DNA of 64,000 nucleotides, from assembly GCF_002127325.2 (NCBI RefSeq), contig NC_035436.2:113607591-113671590 (forward strand), in the 5' to 3' direction. This document shows positions 1 through 47,915 of the stretch, piece after piece. The position numbers were made by a program, and so were the translations under genes. The number at the start of each line of letters is the position of its first letter. The first letter of the stretch is position 1. The notes under the pieces are model-generated. The model was given only the letters and a program-made list of their open reading frames with translations, had not been told where the DNA came from and did not search any database. Source of the stretch: Helianthus annuus. Lineage: Eukaryota > Streptophyta > Magnoliopsida > Asterales > Asteraceae.

Positions 1-2144
1 TCATCCCATAACATCACTACGTTCCATTATAGACAAGTACCAGTAAATAATCAAATCCCATTCCCACCCTGGGAACCCCATGCCTTGGCTGTGTGAACTC
101 ACCTTGGTTTGCTCGGTATGTTATTGCTTCTAGGGTTTATAAATCTCTAAGTACGTAACACACGACCTAGGATGTGTTGCACATGATACGATGTAAGTGT
201 TTGCATCAAATAAGGGTTTACACATCTTTGATATCCAAGCGATTGTGTTGTGTGTGTTTATTGTGTACATGATGATATCACATAGAATGTTCACGCACGT
301 AGAATCATATAGTTGCATTCAATATCATACAATCATTCACGCAGAATCATACATCATGTAAGCATTCCATCCTATTCCCGTAATTCACGCGTAGCGTCCC
401 TGATTTCACGGTTTAATCTTACATGTATAATAATCTAATGGTCATCGTTAACATACCTATCATATTAACATCGTTATTAAACCTTACAAGTTTAACGTAG
501 TCAGGGATTTACAAATTGTCATGCACAGCTAAACAGGTTAACATTATGTAACATGCAATTCATTGATTCAAAGTGAACATCAAGCAATATCAGGCAGGGC
601 CTTGCCATTCTAAACTCAGACAAGTGTGGGGGGGGGGGGCTTCCCCTGTTAAAAGTCGGACAGAACAAGTCATGGTTTAAAACTCAGACAACATAACCTT
701 AACATTTTCGGACCATGAGAGCTTAAAAAGTCGGACCAAAAGGAGAGGAGTTAAACTCGGACTAGGGGGGGATCCTCACAAACTCGGACCCTTGAGCATA
801 ATATAAACTCAGACCTGACTTGATTACTTAAACTCGGTCCATGTGATTCATTAAACTCGGGCCCAAAAGTGTGTTAAACAAACTCGGACAAGCAACAACA
901 TCTTAATAAAACTCGGACATAAGGTTCATCAAGTAACTCGGACCACCTAAGGCCCAAACAAAGTCGGACATAAACATCTTATTAAACTCGGACCAAATCA
1001 CTTGTACATAACTCGGACTGAACTTTATTTGATTAAACTCGGACATAAGATTTTAATACTTAAAGCTCGGACTAAGTAGGGGGGGGGGGTTTCATGCTTG
1101 AAACTCGGGTAGAATCCAAGGGACAAGAAACTCGGACACTTCACAATTGTTTAAAGTCGGACACATCAACCATTAATAAACTCGGTCCAAGGAGAATCCA
1201 ATAAACTCGGTCCAACAACTTCAATAAACTCGGGCAAGCTTATCCATTAACCTAAACTCGGACCTTATGTGATTGTCAACAAAGTCGGACCATGACCCTT
1301 ACCAAATCCTCAGACTTCATCACATATTAAAAACTCAGACACACATTATCATTCAAACTCGGATCTAGCATAATCTCAGACTTTTATCATCCACAAACTC
1401 AGACAATCAGCATCATACAAATATTCAAGTTCGCAGTTACAGCCTTACGACAACAGTTACGTTTCGATGATTATTCCAAACCCTAGTTCATGATTCTCAC
1501 AATGCAAGATCAATTCAATCGACCGATACTTAACAACCAAAAATCATCATAAGATCAATGTATCAAGCAATGCAATTAATCATCATCATCATCACATTAT
1601 TTCATAATTAAATCAAAACCGCAGAACCTTGTATGAAGAACTAGGGCTTCCAAGAACACAAATCAAGAATCAAGAACAACAACAATTCAAAATAATCAAT
1701 AAACAATTAACATCAACGATGATTAAACCATTACCTTGATTCGATTCTAGTTGGATTAGCAATCAAACTTGATGTGAAAGACTTGTGAATCCAAGAATGA
1801 TAAGAAGGTGGTTGTAGAGAGGATTAGGGAATGTGGGTACGTGTTTTGATTCTTAGAGAGTGATTAGTGAATGATTAGGAAGGGGATTAGGGTTATGAGT
1901 TGTTAAAGTTTCACTATCAACCCTACACACCCTTAAGTATTCTTTATTACAGTTTCAACACCACATTCCTTTATTTGACAAATCTTTCACAAGCAACACA
2001 TAACCATGCACAATCACACAATACAATTCGTTGTATCAAAACGTATCTCATTCCATAGCAAATAATTGTGAAATCAATCGACTAAATAATACAAGAACGT
2101 GCAATAAATGCGAAATAGAAATCTTGGAAATTCGAGTTGTCACA
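1..2144 (-). repeat. Tek1 3' LTR, partial
   Basis: It aligns base for base with 6823-8966, the last two thirds of the complete Tek1 LTR. It ends in GTTGTCACA next to the polypurine tract. It holds the CTCGGAC word array (about 610-1405) and an A/C-rich stretch to 2144. There is no gene here; short reading frames such as 130-318 recur in both LTR copies and have no recognisable product. Confidence 0.95.
610..1405. repeat. CTCGGAC word array in Tek1 left LTR
   Basis: About thirty copies of AAACTCGGAC and close variants (AAAGTCGGAC, AAACTCAGAC, AAACTCGGTCC) lie at a step of about 25 bp, for example near 752, 780, 805, 830, 854, 880, 907, 932, 960, 984, 1009 and 1036. The bases between the words are not repeated, so this is a spaced-word array and not a classical tandem repeat. 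Runs of ten G break it near 628 and 1080. Confidence 0.9.
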
Positions 2145-2220: not shown

Positions 2221-4405
2221 TCACTGGTTTTTCCTGGGGTGTCACATCATCCCCCTGTTAATTTGGAATTTCGTCCCGAAATTCAGTAGTAGTAGCTTCA
2301 GCCTCAGTAGTGGTTGCATTGGTTTCGAAATGACTGGGGTACTTTTCTGTCATCTGATCTTCGCGTTCCCAGGTGTACTCTGGGCCACGTCGGGAGTTCC
2401 AACGAACTCGAACAAGAGGGATTCTCTTGTGCTTGAGGACCTTACATCCCGGTCCGTGATTTCAACTGGTTCCTCGACGAACTGCAACCGCTCGTCGATA
2501 GTGAGTTCCTTAAAAGGAACTATGAGGGTCTCATCTGATAGACATTTCTTCAGATTCGACACGTGAAATACATTGTGAACTGCACCGAGTTCAGCTGGTA
2601 GTTTCAGTCTGTAGGCTACTTGGCCTATTCTTTCAGTGATTTCGAACGGTCCAACATACCGTGGATTGAGCTTGCCTCGTTTACCAAATCTAACCACACC
2701 CCTTTCAGGGTGAAACTTTGAGTAAAACCCGGTCCCCGACCTAAAATTCCAATGGCTTCCTACGCTTATCTGCGTAGCTTTTCTGGCGATCGCGAGTTGC
2801 CGCCCTACGTTGCCGTATCTGTGCAATTCGTTCGGTAGCATCAACTACCATTTCTGGGCCTGTAATCTAACTATCCCCCACCTCTGCCCAACCGAGAGGT
2901 GACCGGCATTTACGTCCGTACAATGCCTCGAATGGAGCGGCTTGAATGCTGGTGTGATAACTGTTATAATACGAAAACTCCACCAAAGGGAGATGCTTTT
3001 CCCAGCCGATGCCGAAATCGATAACGCGTGCCCGAAGCATGTCTTTAAGAGTTTGGATCGTTCGCTCAGACTGTCCATCCGTCTGAGGTTGATATGCTGT
3101 GCTCATGCCTAATCGTGAAACGGAAGATTTGTGCATTGCCTGCCATAGTTCTGACGTGAATCGTGCATCCCGATCCGGAATAATGGAGGTGGGCACCCCG
3201 TGCCTCGAAACAACTTCTTTAAAATAGATGTCTGCGAGAGTTGAGAACTTATCCGTTTCCTTTATAGCCAGGAAGTGTGCAGACTTGGTGAGTCGATCCA
3301 CGATCACCCATATAGTATCTTTCCCACACTGGGATCTGGGTAGGCCTGTAACGAAATCCATGGAAATCTCTTCCCATTTCCATTGCGGTATCCTGGGTTG
3401 CTGAAGTAAGTCTGAGGGTTTCTGGTAGTCTGTCTTGACTCTCGCACAAGTCAAACATTTGCAATGTGGGCCTTCATGCTAGGCCACCAATAAGTAGGCT
3501 GTAGCGCTCGCACGCGCTTAGGTAGGGCGTCTTTCCGACTGAGGGCGTCAGCCACAACATTGGCCTTGCCTGGATGATACTTAATGGCGCATTCGTAGTC
3601 GTTCAGAAGTTCAACCCATCTCCGTTGACGCATATTCAAATCCTTTTGCTTAAGAATATGCTCGAGACTCCTGTGATCGGTGTAAGTCGTGCACCTGGTA
3701 CCGTACAGGTAGTGTCGCCATATCTTAAGCGCGAAAACAACAGCTCCCAGCTCTAAATCGTGCGTCGTGTAGTTCCGTTCATGAATCTTGAGTTGTCGCG
3801 AGCGTAAGCAATAACCTTATCCCGTTGTATCAATACACAACCGAGACCCTGTATCGATGTGTCACCATAAGCCACGAAGTCATCTGTGCTCTCCGGCAGT
3901 GAGAGAATAGGTGCGCTGCAAAGCCTATCCTTAAGGTACTGAAAAGCGGTCTCTTGGGAATCTCCCTAACGGTAGGTGACACCTTCCTGTGTCAGCATAG
4001 CAAGTGGCTGTGCGATCTTGGAGAAGTCTTTGATAAACCGCCTGTAGTATCCCGCCAAACCCAAGAATTGGCGTATTTCTGTTGGTGTACACGGTGCTGG
4101 CCAGTTCCTGCTCGAATCTATCTTGGATGGATCGCATCCCTGTTCACCACATGGCCTAAGAAGTGGACTTCACGTAGCCAGAAGTCGCATTTAGAAAACT
4201 TTGCGTACAATTGCTCCTTTCGAAGAAGTTCCAAGATAAGACGTAAGTGCTGCTCGTGCTCCTCCTGACCCTTGGAGTAGATCAGAATGTCGTCGATGAA
4301 GACAATGACGAATTTGTCCAGGTAGGGTTTGCACACCCTGTGCGTAAGGTCCGTAAATACGGCAGGTGCGTTCAATAATATCAAACCATCCATCATATCA
4401 AACAT
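2221..4405 (-). pseudogene. Tek1 pol remnant: RT C-terminus, RNase H, integrase, chromodomain region
   Basis: Read leftwards from 4405, the translation shows the RT palm with FIDD (about 4300), the thumb/connection region, RNase H ending in VVADALSRK, an integrase core (2867-3454) with [14 protein letters not shown] and [10 protein letters not shown] segments, and the GPF/Y region followed by a chromodomain-like tail (2221-2844). The closest relative in the window is Tek2, which is collinear. Against Tek2, Tek1 has many frameshifts and stops. It lacks protease and the first part of RT, lacks about 260 bp between RNase H and the integrase zinc finger (near 3495), and has lost a few codons of the HHCC finger. 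It cannot encode a functional polymerase. The stop position is inferred from alignment with Tek2. Confidence 0.9.
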
Positions 4406-4526
4406 AAAGTATAGTAGTTAAAAATAATTCATAAAATCCAATACATTTGATGTTCAAACTAAACTTTGTTTGAGTAGCGGAAACATAATAATGAAAAACC
4501 CAAAAAGAAGTTATAAGTTCAAATAT
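4380..4526. other. LTR-derived filler replacing PR and N-terminal RT in Tek1
   Basis: Gag homology stops near 4527 and RT homology resumes near 4380. The roughly 145 bp between them are AT-rich and non-coding. They resemble the U5 side of the Tek1 LTR (about 6215-6340): both carry ATCATATC, then GATGTT, then a GAGTAGCGGAAAC or TTAAGTAGCGGAAGC block followed by ATAATGA. I infer a template switch into an LTR during reverse transcription that removed roughly 1.2 kb of coding sequence. Confidence 0.65.
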
Positions 4527-5826
4527 CGTTCATTGCGTCTCCTCGTCCTAACACGAAAGCTTGACCTCTTGCCTCGTTGCCATTGTTGTTGTTGTTTCCC
4601 CTGTTGTTGTTGTTGTTCCCGTTGCCCTGATTATTGTTGTGGTTCTGATTCTGGTTCAACTGAGGGCAGTCGCGTTTGTAATGACCTTCTGCCCCACACT
4701 GGAAACATCCCCGGTTCCCACGCTGTGGTTGCTGCTGCTGGTTCTGTGGAGCTGGCGGTGGGAGTTGCTGGTTCTGATTTGCTGGCCGTGAGCTTCTACA
4801 ATCCTTAGCCTCATGTCCCACCTTGAGGCATCTTTGGCATTGTTCCCTGCGACATCTTCCGCTGTGGTGTCTGTTGCACTTATTACACAGTGGGTGAATT
4901 CCCCGATATCCACCCTGCCCCTGACTGCCAGATGATTGCTGAGTCGAATTCTGGTAGTCATTTGTCTTGCGCTGCTAAGACTGAACAGTAACCGATCCCT
5001 TGCTGGAATCCCCCTCCCATTTCCTCTTGTTGTCACTGGGGGTAGCAGAAGTGGTGACAGCAGCAGTGGTAGCCTTGACACGCTTTGGCAGTCTGTTCTG
5101 ATCCACTGCCTGATCTGTAATACGGTGAGCGAGGCGCTGAATAGCCTGAATGTTGTCAAGATTAGCCGATGTCACATGGCTCTGGATCTCTGGCGCCAAA
5201 CCCTTGAGATACATCTCAATACGCTTGTATGGTGGGTCTACCATAGTTGGGCATAACACGGCTAGCTCGTTCGACCGTTTAGTATACGCTTCGATCTCTG
5301 ATCCAACCATTTTCAAATTATACAGCTCGTCTTCCAACTTGTGAATATCTTCACGTGTGCAGTACTCCCTTTTGATAAGTTCCTTAAAATCATTCCAGGG
5401 TGTGGCGTTAGCAGCTGCCAACCCTAAGATCTGTACTTGCGCGTTCCACCAAGTCAACGCGATTCCTTCCAAAGTGCCAGTGGCGTACTTGACCTTGCGA
5501 GCCTCAGGGCACTCGCACATTTCGAATACTGACTCTAGCTTTTCAAACCAATGGAGGAGTCCCACTGCCCCCTCGGTGCCACTGAATGAGCTTGGACGAC
5601 AGTCCATGAAGTTCTTGAATGTGCAGACAGGATGCTGCGCTTGTTGACCTATTGTGTACGAATAGGACAAAGTTAAATACGAGAGTTAATGTAGGATCTA
5701 AGGATCCTAGTGTGAGTCTACACTGCAGGGTATACTACCTGCTTGAGCAGCTGCAAGTGCCGCAGCAACTTGAGTTTGAACGAAAGCCTCTAACTGGGCT
5801 TGTGTCATGCTAATTCTTCCAGACAT
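4519..5826 (-). pseudogene. Tek1 gag remnant, two exons
   Basis: Exon 1 (5826-5739, 29 codons plus one base, starting MSGRISMTQAQ) joins across a 90-nt intron to exon 2 (from 5648). Exon 2 holds the Retrotrans_gag domain (motifs FKNFMDCRP, ALTWWNAQV, EAYTKRSNELA) and then CCHC zinc knuckles of the form CX2CX4HX4C (CQRCLKVGHEAKDC, CFQCGAEGHYKRDC). Gag packages element RNA into virus-like particles. One in-frame TAG at 4975-4977 breaks the frame between the domain and the knuckles; Tek2 has sense codons there. The frame is lost at 4526, where filler DNA replaces protease. The Asn/Gln-rich tail is low complexity. Confidence 0.88.
5649..5738 (-). other. Predicted intron in Tek1 gag
   Basis: The interval is 90 nt, begins GTAGTATACC and ends ACACAATAG in element sense. 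It contains stop codons, has a pyrimidine-rich 3' part and carries TTAAC branch-point-like motifs. Removing it joins GCAG to GTCAA in phase 1 and continues the gag frame. Tek2 has an intron of identical length and borders at 41166-41255. Confidence 0.75.
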
Positions 5827-6785: not shown

Positions 6786-7434
6786 CTAGCAGTAGTTCTA
6801 ACCGTGGAGTATGTACCATAGTTCATCCCATAACATCACTACGTTCCATTATAGACAAGTACCAGTAAATAATCAAATCCCATTCCCACCCTGGGAACCC
6901 CATGCCTTGGCTGTGTGAACTCACCTTGGTTTGCTCGGTATGTTATTGCTTCTAGGGTTTATAAATCTCTAAGTCCGTAACACACGACCTAGGATGTGTT
7001 GCACATGATACGATGTAAGTGTTTGCATCAAATAAGGGTTTACACATCTTTGATATCCAAGCGATTGTGTTGTGTGTGTTTATTGTGTACATGATGATAT
7101 CACATAGAATGTTCACGCACGTAGAATCATATAGTTGCATTCAATATCATACAATCATTCACGCAGAATCATACATCATGTAAGCATTCCATCCTATTCC
7201 CGTAATTCACGCGTAGCGTCCCTGATTTCACGGTTTAATCTTACATGTATAATAATCTAATGGTCATCGTTAACATACCTATCATATTAACATCGTTATT
7301 AAACCTTACAAGTTTAACGTAGTCAGGGATTTACAAATTGTCATGCACAGCTAAACAGGTTAACATTATGTAACATGCAATTCATTGATTCAAAGTGAAC
7401 ATCAAGCAATATCAGGCAGGGCCTTGCCATTCTA

Positions 7435-8229
7435 AACTCAGACAAGTGTGGGGGGGGGGGGGCTTCCCCTGTTAAAAGTCGGACAGAACAAGTCATGGTT
7501 TAAAACTCAGACAACATAACCTTAACATTTTCGGACCATGAGAGCTTAAAAAGTCGGACCAAAAGGAGAGGAGTTAAACTCGGACTAGGGGGGGATCCTC
7601 ACAAACTCGGACCCTTGAGCATAATATAAACTCGGACCTGACTTGATTACTTAAACTCGGTCCATGTGATTCATTAAACTCGGGCCCAAAAGTGTGTTAA
7701 ACAAACTCGGACAAGCAACAACATCTTAATAAAACTCGGACATAAGGTTCATCAAGTAACTCGGACCACCTAAGGCCCAAACAAAGTCGGACATAAACAT
7801 CTTATTAAACTTGGACCAAATCACTTGTACATAACTCGGACTGAACTTTATTTGATTAAACTCGGACATAAGATTTTAATACTTAAAGCTCGGACTAAGT
7901 AAGGGGGGGGGTTTCATGCTTGAAACTCGGGTAGAATCCAAGGGACAAGAAACTCGGACACTTCACAATTGTTTAAAGTCGGACACATCAACCATTAATA
8001 AACTCGGTCCAAGGAGAATCCAATAAACTCGGTCCAACAACTTCAATAAACTCGGGCAAGCTTATCCATTAACCTAAACTCGGACCTTATGTGATTGTCA
8101 ACAAAGTCGGACCATGACCCTTACCAAATCCTCGGACTTCATCACATATTAAAAACTCAGACACACATTATCATTCAAACTCGGATCTAGCATAATCTCA
8201 GACTTTTATCATCCACAAACTCAGACAAT
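7435..8229. repeat. CTCGGAC word array in Tek1 right LTR
   Basis: This is the second copy of the array at 610-1405, with a handful of base changes (for example a CTCAGAC word reads CTCGGAC near 7628). Confidence 0.9.
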
Positions 8230-9751
8230 CAGCATCATACAAATATTCAAGTTCGCAGTTACAGCCTTACGACAACAGTTACGTTTCGATGATTATTCCA
8301 AACCCTAGTTCATGATTCTCACAATGCAAGATCAATTCAATCGACCGATACTTAACAACCAAAAATCATCATAAGATCAATGTATCAAGCAATGCAATTA
8401 ATCATCATCATCATCACATTATTTCATAATTAAATCAAAACCGCAGAACCTTGTATGAAGAACTAGGGCTTCCAAGAACACAAATCAAGAATCAAGAACA
8501 ACAACAATTCAAAATAATCAATAAACAATTAACATCAACGATGATTAAACCATTACCTTGATTCGATTCTAGTTGGATTAGCAATCAAACTTGATGTGAA
8601 AGACTTGTGAATCCAAGAATGATAAGAAGGTGGTTGTAGAGAGGATTAGGGAATGTGGGTACGTGTTTTGATTCTTAGAGAGTGATTAGTGAATGATTAG
8701 GAAGGGGATTAGGGTTATGAGTTGTTAAAGTTTCACTATCAACCCTACACACCCTTAAGTATTCTTTATTACAGTTTCAACACCACATTCCTTTATTTCA
8801 CAAATCTTTCACAAGCAACACATAACCATGCACAATCACACAATACAATTCGTTGTATCAAAACGTATCTCATTCCATAGCAAATAATTGTGAAATCAAT
8901 CGACTAAATAATACAAGAACGTGCAATAAATGCGAAATAGAAATCTTGGAAATTCGAGTTGTCACAGAAAGCATGAAAGTAACAGGTAGGCACATGTGTT
9001 TCACCCCAAAACAGTTTGGAAAACAGTAAAAGAGGGGTTAAATGTACTCACCTGAGATTGCTTTGAAGTTCTTGTATAATAACCAGATAATGCTAGAGAT
9101 CACGGAATATCAAACGGCACCTAATAGGACCAAAATTGGAAGGATCGGATAGTATGCGGGTTCGTAAACCAAACGAGTATGGAGACTCGTGTAATATGGT
9201 CTAACAAAGCCTACATACTAAAATGAAACCTAACCTAAGTGCTTGCGACCCATTACGACCCGTTTAGGTAGCTTATGCTACCTCACGCGTCGTTCGCGTA
9301 GAACGCGTCTGGAACGCCTAACATCGTGACCACAAGGTATAACCTCGGAAGGTTATAGCTATGGTCATCTAATGTGTTTGGTCGGATCCTAATGATCGGC
9401 CAAATGGGTCGGGTTCGAAAGTATAAGCGATGGTTTAGATCGCTTACCTTACGACCCTATATATGCACTAAACTAAAAGTGACGAGCTAAGCATGTTAGG
9501 ACATGCTTAACTAAGTTTAGAAAACAGGTTTGGCACCAAAACGAACGGCTTTGATGCTCACGAGTAGTTTGGTTACAAAATATGCAAGAATGCACATTTT
9601 GGCCGAAACTACGACTCGTCACTAAGCCTAGATAACGTGGTAATAAGTAGGTATAGTCACTACGGACTATAACCATCGTGATCACGCTCACGTTATGAAG
9701 TTCCATGAACTTCGTGTTGACCATAGGCTGGTCAATGCAGAAAGTCAACAA

Positions 9752-9756
9752 AACGT
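9752..9756. repeat. Target-site duplication AACGT, left of Pal
   Basis: AACGT directly precedes the left Pal terminus TGTTGATG and is repeated at 11576-11580 directly after the right terminus CATCAACA. Confidence 0.9.
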
Positions 9757-10183
9757 TGTTGATGCACGGAATGTCTGTTGACTGCGTCTACAAAAAGTCT
9801 GAAGTCAAGATTGGTCTATAAGGGGTTAAAGTGTAAATATTGTGTAAAATAGGCTTAGGATCGCTTATTAGTCATTGTGTTGATGTGGACCGCTTTTGTG
9901 TCACTTATATGGATCTCTTATAGGACAAAGGGTCTGGATCGCTCATGTGTCATGTCTTAAGAGCGACCCTGGATCTCTATATATAGGGGTGAGCGGTTCA
10001 TAAGTTGTAACAGTGTATGTGTGTGCTACGGTGCTGAAACTCTGCCAAATTTTTATCAGAAAGCAATAGAAAGATAAGGAATTGAAAGGATAAGCTGTTG
10101 TAACTTCATATATGTTGATTCCGCCTTCATACATGAAGATGAACTACCTTGACTGACTTATCGGGTCATAGAACGGTCCAACA
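9757..10183 (+). repeat. Pal left LTR, plus orientation (427 bp)
   Basis: It starts TGTTGATGCACGG and ends CGGTCCAACA. TATATATA at 9978-9985 is the probable TATA box. Several GGATCGCT or GGACCGCT words extend the leader word array into the LTR. Confidence 0.94.
9978..9985 (+). promoter_or_regulatory. TATA box of Pal left LTR
   Basis: TATATATA in CTCTATATATAGGGG. The inverted LTR has its counterpart at 11347-11354 on the minus strand. The two promoters therefore converge on the short interior. Confidence 0.75.
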
Positions 10184-10185
10184 AG

Positions 10186-10197
10186 TGGTATCAGAGC
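10186..10197 (+). other. Pal left primer-binding site
   Basis: TGGTATCAGAGC lies two bases inside the left LTR and is complementary to the tRNA-iMet 3' end. Its far side joins directly to reversed gag sequence with no leader. Confidence 0.9.
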
Positions 10198-10542
10198 TAC
10201 ACACTTTTGTTCAGCTACAAAGAGATCAATTTCTTCAGAATTTCTTAAAGCTTCACCTTTTTTCTTTCCCTCAGCATAACCGTTTTTCATACTCTTCCAA
10301 CTGGGGAAAGCGAATGCCATTAGCCAATCTTCGAACTTTGTTGCCCACCTGCTGTAGTCCTCTATAGCCATCAACTTAGGAGGTTTGTTAAACGTTCCAA
10401 ATGCACTTTCGGACTCCCAAGCTTCTTTCTTTTTCTCCTTTTGTTGATTCTCGTTCGTATTGTTCGATGTCGAATCGTTGTTTCCTGAACTTCCCGTGAA
10501 TGCGTACATATCGCTAAATGGATTCAAGAACATATCATCCAT
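10195..10542 (-). pseudogene. Pal gag fragment, Copia N-terminal Gag
   Basis: The first ATG is at 10542. The frame reads about 115 residues with KPPKLMAIEDYSRWATKFED, the typical start of Copia Gag (DUF4219/UBN2 type). Coding ends where the sequence turns into the inverted primer site near 10197, so only the N-terminal part of Gag is present and no zinc knuckle, protease or polymerase follows. An in-frame extension upstream of the ATG has no start codon. Confidence 0.8.
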
Positions 10543-10619
10543 CGTGAACGTACCTGCAAAATCAGACAATCACTTAGCAAAGTTTTGGTTTTTTTTTAAA
10601 AAAATAACAGAACCACAAA

Positions 10620-10925
10620 AGCGATCCTGTTTGTACAGCTTGACAGAAAAGCAGATCAATAGATGTCCGTATACGCGGTCCAGACAACAATGTCCTTTCG
10701 AGCGGACCACAAAGTGTCAGAAAAGCGAGTCACAAGTATCTGTTCGAGCGATTCAGGCTATGATCGTTCGAGCGGTTCGTATATGATCGTTCGAGCGATC
10801 CTAACAATAAAATTGTCCAAAAGAGCGATCCAAACAAATGTTTCGAGCGATCCTAAGGTTAAATTTTCGAGCGATTCAGATTAAATCCAGATAAGCGGTC
10901 CTAATGTCCGAAAAGGCGATCCATT
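10620..10925. repeat. GAGCGATCC word array in Pal leader
   Basis: About twelve words of the form (G/A)AGCG(A/G)(T/A)(C/T)C lie near 10700, 10723, 10746, 10770, 10793, 10823, 10845, 10869, 10893 and 10914, a step close to 23 bp. In element sense they read GGATCGCTC. The array lies between the right primer site and gag. CopA and CopB have the same type of array in the same place. Confidence 0.88.
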
Positions 10926-11134
10926 GTTTTTAGCCTGTTTTTACCAATTTTAATCCGTATTTTCACCTGATTCTTTCTAGGGTTTGTTAATAGTGTGTTT
11001 TACACGTTATACTCGAATTTCAGACAATTTTGACCGTTGGAACCACTAGAAACTGAAAAAGTATGAGAGAAAGTGAGTAGAAAAGAGAGATTTCTGCAGA
11101 TCTATGCTGTAGTAGTATGAACTCCTCGTCCTGA

Positions 11135-11146
11135 GCTCTGATACCA
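11135..11146 (-). other. Pal right primer-binding site
   Basis: On the minus strand TGGTATCAGAGC sits two bases inside the right LTR and is followed by a normal leader leading to gag. This is the authentic 5' end of the element. Confidence 0.92.
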
Positions 11147-11148
11147 CT

Positions 11149-11575
11149 TGTTGGACCGTTCTATGACCCGATAAGTCAGTCAAGGTAGTTCATCTTCATG
11201 TATGAAGGCGGAATCAACATATATGAAGTTACAACAGCTTATCCTTTCAATTCCTTATCTTTCTATTGCTTTCTGATAAAAATTTGGCAGAGTTTCAGCA
11301 CCGTAGCACACACATACACTGTTACAACTTATGAACCGCTCACCCCTATATATAGATATCCAGGGTCGCTCTTAAGACATGACACATGAGCGATCCAGAC
11401 CCTTTGTCGTATAAGCGATCCATATAAGTGATACAAAAGCGGTCCACATCAACACAATGACTAATAAGCGATCCTAAGCCTATTTTACACAATATTTACA
11501 CTTTAACCCCTTATAGACCAATCTTGACTTCAGACTTTTTGTAGACGCAGTCAACAGACATTCCGTGCATCAACA
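11149..11575 (-). repeat. Pal right LTR, minus orientation (427 bp)
   Basis: This is the reverse complement of 9757-10183 with a few substitutions, for example GATATC for GATCTC by the TATA box at 11347-11354. Its outer end CATCAACA is followed by the duplicated target AACGT. Confidence 0.94.
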
Positions 11576-11580
11576 AACGT
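11576..11580. repeat. Target-site duplication AACGT, right of Pal
   Basis: This is the second copy of the 5-bp target; see 9752-9756. Confidence 0.9.
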
Positions 11581-31450: not shown

Positions 31451-32849
31451 GATTTGGAAACACGTTTATCGAGACAGTCACTTAAAATGAAATATCAAAT
31501 TCAAACTAGATCCCCTTTTGAATGAAATGATTCACCTCATGAAACACCTGAAACAAACAAACAAAACACAATCAGTTTAACACTTATCAACTAACAGAAA
31601 CGAACTGATACTCGAACCAGTGAATATTCTGTGTGGATCGAAGTTTGAAATTGGCAAACTGTGAGAACTTCTTTGACACGGATCAAAATCAAACGAACAG
31701 ATTCACTATGGACGAACTGATGGACTTTCAAACGACCTTCCCCGACTTCCAATCGACCTGGTTCAAAATTCAAGTGAACTGGACCTTTGAATGATCAAAC
31801 CATGAAATTTGGTCCTTTGAACTGTATTGTATTTCAAACACTCATTTAAACAAAACTAGTTTGACATTTAACAAAATAATGCTGACACGGTTATATAGGC
31901 CGAAGATATCATATATTTGCTTTTAAACACAAAATCAAAATATTGATTGGGCCGAGTTATGAAATTGTGACTTTTAAGAAAAATGCCGACAAACTCTTAT
32001 AACACATGACTTCTCATTGGGCCTTCATTTTGTTTTGGGCGGCAACTGTTAATTGGGCCAATACTCTATGGGGCGGTGGGCGGTGGAACAAAAAATTGGT
32101 ATTGGGCCGTTTATTTAGTGGGGCGGTGCCTTCAGAATTCAAACACCCATTGATTGGGCCTAACACTTTATGGGGGGCGGTGGAAGGACAATGCTATGAT
32201 TACAATTCACAATTCACATAAGCCTACACATCATAACAACAGACAAATGGACGGCAACTTGAAAGTGATTGGTTCATATGAGCGAACCACTATTATTGCA
32301 CAACGAGCGAACCATAATTTTGACTAATAAGCGGATCTGTTATGTTGACATATAAGCGAACTGTAATAATGATCTATATAAGCGAACCATCTGTTTGGAT
32401 TAATGAGCGGACCTCACATGACAGAAAAGCGAACCATGTGTTAAGTTTTGAGCGAACCTAAGTTGGATTGACACAAAAGCGAACTACAATTATGTTTATG
32501 AGCGAACCTGATTTAATTTTTTGAGCGGATCTAACAAATTTCGAGCGAATCTGCCTTAAACGTGTCCTAAAAGCGAACCTGATTACAATTTGGAGCGAAC
32601 CTATCACGATGCCGTAAAAGCGGACCTGTTTGTTTGACGAAAAAACAAACCGAAAAACCTCGATTTCTCCTAAACGGCTAGGAGTTTCGATCTGAAACTT
32701 GGCAGGGTTGTAGATCAGGTATATACGCACAACATATCCAAAAATCAGCTGAAACGGACCGTGAAAACTTGGTCTGACGAAGAAAGAGGTGTAGAAGAAA
32801 GAATATGTGACGAAATCCAGCAAATTTCAATAGAACTCCTCCTCCTGAA
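31451..32849 (-). other. CopA untranslated leader, two word blocks
   Basis: The block near the primer site (32281-32626) is the AGCGAACC array. The block nearer gag (about 31940-32180) repeats GGCCCAAT and CACCGCCC (element sense). CopB has the same two blocks in the same order. No conserved upstream ORF is seen. Confidence 0.8.
32281..32626. repeat. AGCGAACC word array in CopA leader
   Basis: About fifteen words near 32281, 32305, 32329, 32354, 32380, 32405, 32427, 32450, 32477, 32500, 32523, 32543, 32570, 32593 and 32618, mean step about 24 bp. In element sense they read GGTTCGCT, GGTCCGCT or GATCCGCT. Intervening bases are not repeated. Confidence 0.9.
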
Positions 32850-47628: not shown

Positions 47629-47915
47629 TAGGAGCTCGATTGCTTGATCAAACACGTCGTTCTCGTACAGATTTCAGCGTATTCAGAGCCAAATCAGATC
47701 CGGATTCTTCGATTTCTTCATCTTCTACTTGTTTCTTACATTTTTTCTGAAAAACGTCAAATTGAACAGGTAAATTCGGTCCAAATCGTCTGATTTTTGG
47801 ATATGTTGTGCGTTTAGACCCGATCTACAATCCTACCAAATTTCAGCTCGAAACTCCAAGCCGTTTTGGAGAAATCGCGATTTTTCTGTCCGAATTTGCG
47901 TCAAAATTCAGCTGT

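Follow-up and report, generated by a model that had tools for sequence, protein, structure and literature searches.

The window analysed here, a 64-kb stretch of DNA, contains a Ty1/copia unit of 1819 bp (window 9757-11575) in which two 427-bp LTRs are placed head to head. The unit and its flanking target site duplication (TSD) comprise the following features:

9752-9756, plus strand: left copy of the TSD, AACGT, a sequence present as a single copy in 11 of 11 fetched paralogous empty sites
9757-10183, plus strand: LTR A, 427 bp, U3 end outwards and U5 end inwards, identical to LTR B at 423 of 427 positions
From 9978 (LTR position 222): TATATATAG in LTR A
10186-10197, plus strand: primer-binding site of LTR A, TGGTATCAGAGC, 12 nt, facing inwards
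10192-10198, minus strand: junction overlap AGCTCTG, common to native gag (sense on the minus strand) and the antisense primer site
10199-10542, minus strand: 5' fragment of gag, with its ATG at 10542 (MDDMFLNPF...)
10543-11134, minus strand: 5' untranslated leader of the element, containing repeats of GRAYCGCT, a motif also found in the LTR
11135-11146, minus strand: primer-binding site of LTR B, TGGTATCAGAGC, facing inwards and followed by the native leader TCAGGACGAGG
11149-11575, minus strand: LTR B, 427 bp, U3 end outwards
11576-11580, plus strand: right copy of the TSD, AACGT

Aligning the two LTRs reveals four substitutions and no gaps (99.06% identity), and inward of each LTR the bases AG are followed by TGGTATCAGAGC. 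The inverted arms extend over 443 nt with 99% complementarity, far beyond chance. Both outer ends of the unit begin with TGTTGATGCACGG, the exact U3 terminus of the LTR, and the outer end of a relative on contig C8 is identical. The original prediction had described opposed 427-bp LTRs with inward primer sites, AACGT on both outer sides and U3 ends at both extremities; on re-examination its coordinates and description proved right, including the identity of the outer ends. The reading frame of the gag fragment continues into the antisense primer site and LTR as far as a stop at 10144, giving 132 codons. Scanning the 64-kb window for repeats returned two inverted pairs of at least 60 nt and no second pair of comparable size, the other pair (32633-32761 and 47777-47905) being 129 nt long at 83% with its arms 15 kb apart.

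Two further observations concern the unit and its surroundings. The motif GRAYCGCT occurs four times in LTR B and eight times in the interior of the unit, in a single orientation (none reversed in the interior), which suggests a cis-acting array. Next to the unit, window 1-2144 and 6823-8966 form a direct repeat of 2.1 kb with 99.6% identity, flanking minus-strand pol and gag-like frames at 2350-5670; assigned by eye, this is apparently a young Gypsy element.

Read along its minus strand, the unit is organized as the native copies are, with LTR B, primer site, leader and gag from the ATG, and its primer site is a putative match to the initiator-methionine tRNA. Relatives were sought in a 3.01-Gb assembly of 334 contigs. 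A Pfam search of the unit's 132-aa gag fragment gave no match; in full-length relatives, RVT_2 is detected in a piece of the C7 copy (L053, E 1.3e-76) and Retrotran_gag_2, the 'gag-polypeptide of LTR copia-type', in the gag of the C15 copy (L012, E 1.1e-11). These matches bear out the Copia assignment made from the sequence at the outset. With copia-type gag and RVT_2 in relatives and a 5-bp TSD, the source of the unit's parts carries both Ty1/copia hallmarks, and the source family is Ty1/copia with an element of roughly 10 kb. In the full-length C7 copy, the LTRs lie on the same strand at a distance of about 10 kb and differ at 5 of 422 positions, and GGAGC flanks the copy on both sides. The TSDs are thus AACGT for the unit, GGAGC for the C7 relative and GCTGG for the C8 relative.

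The closest relative of the interior is the C8 copy, with 98.85% identity over 942 nt. This copy (L011 and L052; G000:C8:130490000-130494044) has a full 5' LTR, leader and gag, followed only by LTR positions ~313-427, the U5 end. It is flanked by GCTGG on both sides, and its joint lies at a 5-nt overlap, AGATA, common to native gag and LTR; the truncated form could be the result of a faulty strand transfer or of a later deletion. Elsewhere in G000, three same-strand LTR pairs of this family are 18-19 kb apart rather than 10 kb (C5:5615176-5634333, C3:15343932-15362740 and C3:81542896-81562480). On C5, the two LTRs differ at 2 of 422 positions and the pair is bounded on either outer side by GAGAT; it may be a long form, a three-LTR form or the holder of a nested insert. 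The copy on the short contig C30 (66.6 kb; G000:C30:58760, L003) shares with the C5:5615176 copy (L005) a 5' flank that is identical over the ~20 bases inspected, so that C30 may represent this locus a second time, as a duplicate or another haplotype.

The unit sits within a high-copy repeat, whose paralogous copies provide the empty site. The left flank has 39 scored matches besides its own locus, and eleven of these (L041-L051) were fetched. All 11 read ..AAACGTTGAC.. with a single AACGT, and in each the left flank ends exactly 5 bases past the start of the right flank. The original prediction had named an empty target other than a single AACGT as grounds for abandoning its model; on the paralogues, the outcome went in its favor. 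A single AACGT at all 11 sites indicates that the palindrome entered whole and duplicated 5 bp of the target in the normal way; the comparison shows a clean duplication with nothing lost at the insertion site. Exact U3 termini at both ends, together with a 5-bp duplication around the whole palindrome, imply that integrase inserted the two U3 ends together, in a single concerted reaction. The suggestion that integrase had accepted two U3 ends is thereby supported by the outer termini and the empty sites alike.

The same sites bear on two explanations in which the arrangement is not a product of insertion. Inverted repeats are difficult to assemble, and an assembly artefact might be suspected here. 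An artefact would not be expected to produce an exact 5-bp duplication of a sequence that all the fetched paralogues carry once, nor four substitutions each confined to one of the arms, and we consider it barely credible. Alternatively, a normal element could have been rearranged after insertion, by inversion of one LTR or by recombination with a second insertion, and plant genomes often contain recombinant complexes (PMC1950507). One LTR would then have had to invert exactly at its terminal bases with the target duplication kept, which makes this route very improbable. Two separate insertions would have left different duplications, and the other LTRs of the family that were compared differ from LTR A by at least 3%. 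Post-insertion recombination and nested insertion were both rejected on the empty site and the LTR identity.

LTR A and LTR B were compared with 35 other LTR rows, four of which are places fetched twice, leaving 31 distinct places. Neither is more than 97.0% identical to any of the 35 rows, compared with 99.06% to each other, and in a tree of 33 LTRs with duplicates removed they are sisters with support of 98/88. All four differences between them are absent from the 35 other rows, one being private to A and three to B. Recombination between distinct parental LTRs as templates was rejected as their source, none of the four being found in those rows. Since every difference is private to one arm, the LTRs were probably identical at insertion, and they probably derive from one reverse-transcription event. 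At 1.0 to 1.3e-8 substitutions per site and year, 4 differences in 427 positions correspond to an insertion age of about 0.35 to 0.5 million years, an estimate that could be too young if gene conversion occurred between the arms.

The inner junction of the unit lies in gag. Native gag reads ..GTGTGTAGCTCTG followed by TTGTTTC, whereas in the unit ..GTGTGTAGCTCTG is followed by ATACCACTTGTTGG. Over a longer view, native GTGTGTAGCTCTG continues as TTGTTTCAATC and that of the unit as ATACCACTTGTTGGACC, which is the antisense primer site and LTR. Sense gag therefore switches to the antisense primer site and LTR over the 7-nt overlap AGCTCTG, six bases of which come from the end of the 12-nt primer site. 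The break of gag at GCTCTGATACCA reported in the initial reading is real, the portion common to native gag being AGCTCTG. Overlaps of at least 7 nt at random breakpoints have a probability of 6.3e-4. Searching the genome with the junction DNA gave 40 scored matches (of 1580 first-look candidates), of which one, the unit itself, matches from base 1 and spans the junction. The 39 others all start at query base 33 or 34, which corresponds to CAGAGCT at window 10192 or 10193.

The hexamer GCTCTG was followed through the first 2388 nt after the primer site in 29 native loci. It occurs once in 19 of them, always at the break site, and is absent from the remaining 10, among them the C8 copy, which reads GCTTTG there. 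That the closest interior relative and nine more native loci lack GCTCTG at this site counts against the model set out below, since it leaves the model without an exact donor.

Synthesis of plus-strand strong-stop DNA begins at the U3 end and should end once the tRNA segment corresponding to the primer site has been copied; the transfer of this product in Ty1 was reportedly described by Lauermann and Boeke in 1997. For the present family, this DNA would consist of U3-R-U5 and 12 nt copied from the primer tRNA, with the 3' end ..TATCAGAGC. The arm of the unit formed by LTR and primer site corresponds exactly to this predicted molecule, whose six terminal bases can pair with GCTCTG in gag. We propose that the unit is probably an aberrant product of reverse transcription, generated by mispriming of strong-stop DNA on sense gag and integrated once. 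In the proposed sequence of events, strong-stop DNA would fail to anneal to the minus-strand copy of the primer site, so that the second strand transfer does not take place, and its last six bases, CAGAGC, would instead pair with GCTCTG in sense-strand gag, as DNA or RNA. The simplest template would be plus-strand DNA from another cDNA packaged in the same particle. Extension would then copy back over gag, the leader, the primer site and the LTR until the U3 end was reached. A plus-strand DNA template would yield a complete U3 terminus without a further step, whereas an RNA template would need an additional transfer from R to the 3' end. The product would be a linear DNA with a plus-strand U3 terminus at each end.

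A related route would use a single strand. A nascent plus strand ending in gag at GCTCTG could fold back onto its own primer site and copy its own LTR to the U3 end, the resulting hairpin being made double-stranded and integrated. Such a fold-back would give the same junction, and identical LTRs from a single molecule. Its first product would have one double-stranded end and a closed loop, and an extra second-strand step would be needed before two-ended integration. The position of the overlap also bears on this route. Comparing the native sense strand with the antisense LTR, primer site and early leader reveals, in one native copy, 101 shared stretches of at least 7 nt. Any of these would be usable by fold-back, yet the one used ends at the primer-site end, a position that favors strong-stop DNA. 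We regard fold-back as rather unlikely, although the preference for the primer-site end is based on one junction in the one known instance and cannot settle the choice between the two routes. The original prediction had proposed fold-back or strand switching at the primer site. That location is upheld by the junction overlap and the GCTCTG counts, while fold-back itself gives way to strong-stop mispriming as the favored route.

The junction could also have been made by a repair pathway. Two cDNA fragments, one broken in gag and the other truncated at the primer site, would be joined tail to tail by microhomology-mediated end joining and then integrated. A microhomology of 7 nt is compatible with this pathway. 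The scheme demands both a break of gag at that exact place and a second molecule ending at the primer site, and the latter would again be strong-stop DNA, in a double-stranded form; we consider it improbable, more so than fold-back. Strong-stop mispriming, single-strand fold-back and microhomology joining of two cDNA fragments all yield the same product sequence.

Further copies of the unit were sought in several ways. A 27-nt junction pattern, allowing up to 3 mismatches, has one match in the 3.01-Gb assembly, the unit, and no second copy. No other head-to-head pair was seen by eye among 40 scored LTR places, a small sample of 3796 candidates, and of 30 interior loci fetched, only the unit itself has an inverted LTR within ~1.5 kb. 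The idea that this form is reiterated in the genome as a distinct class thus finds no support, with a single junction match and no other head-to-head pair in that LTR sample; such a class may occur, as far as sequence comparison goes, at other breakpoints or in other families. The unit was also considered as an inverted-repeat DNA transposon of the foldback or MITE type and rejected as such, its arms being Copia LTRs with primer sites, its junction having one match, and no family being found.

Nor does the unit have the form of a canonical LTR retrotransposon, in which the LTRs are direct and the outer ends are one U3 and one U5; here the LTRs are inverted and the ends are U3/U3. The first strand transfer needs R in direct orientation at both ends, and the second LTR of the unit is antisense. 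With no direct R at the 3' end of the transcript, standard reverse transcription should fail. The unit should therefore be unable to move again, in agreement with the finding of no second copy of the junction.

An inverted repeat of this size also affects the predicted folding of a transcript, the aspect examined of the double-stranded RNA and possible silencing trigger put forward in the original prediction. The transcript was modelled as beginning 32 nt downstream of the first base of the TATA box, an assumed position. Of the 206 bases in its first arm, 196 pair in register with the last arm, and the predicted folding energy is -581 kcal/mol, compared with -318 for an equally long native transcript (one control copy). 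The strong predicted fold is due to the inverted repeat and carries no information on expression or silencing. A further, improbable reading is that short U3/U3 palindromes are made that integrate normally and would later act as hairpin-RNA loci against their own family.

Known systems close to the unit include the template-switching complexes of grasses. Sabot and Schulman (2007) took a target duplication and identity of the outer LTRs as evidence of one-piece insertion for these complexes, in which the LTRs are direct (PMC1950507). The Copia (Angela) examples likewise involve aberrant strand transfer in reverse transcription, and the unit shares with them the flanking 5-bp duplication and near-identical outer LTRs. 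They differ in having a third, internal direct LTR, two internal regions and normal outer ends (PMC1950507), whereas the unit has two facing LTRs, one partial internal region and U3/U3 ends. In HIV-1, 26 of 88 proviruses are reported to have asymmetric LTRs, and defective cDNAs ascribed to misalignment during reverse transcription were still integrated (PMC9278108). Some of these proviruses have an intact 5' LTR and a 3' LTR without U3 and part or all of R; their outer ends, as presented there, are the 5' and 3' LTRs in normal orientation. These proviruses resemble the C8 copy more than the unit. A figure legend of the same study mentions inverted regions in some proviruses, and no U3/U3 form appears in the sections of it drawn on here (PMC9278108).

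As regards integrase, one review holds that the U3 end as well as the U5 end must be acted upon for integration to occur during infection; the representative assay of concerted integration in vitro, according to its figure legend, obtains two-end strand transfer with one kind of viral end oligonucleotide (PMC11054761). Set against the assays and the requirement given in that review, two U3 ends on one molecule were used here in a plant genome. Retroviral autointegration offers another comparison: its products, said to have been described by Shoemaker in 1980, are reportedly circles with a strand-transfer joint and inverted cDNA segments. Inverted cDNA segments are common to both, but the joint of the unit is a 7-nt overlap at the primer site. 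Among the open-licence papers listed, surveyed by titles and the beginnings of abstracts, no integrated LTR-retrotransposon unit with inverted LTRs and U3/U3 ends was found, and we do not claim priority.

Such units will escape annotation programs that require LTRs in direct orientation, but they could be counted with present assemblies. Here a Copia integrase acted, in nature, on a single molecule with U3 at both ends and still generated a correct 5-bp duplication, so that integration in the cell does not require a U3/U5 pair. The unit also preserves an apparent failure of the second strand transfer, a stage that can otherwise hardly be observed in plants.
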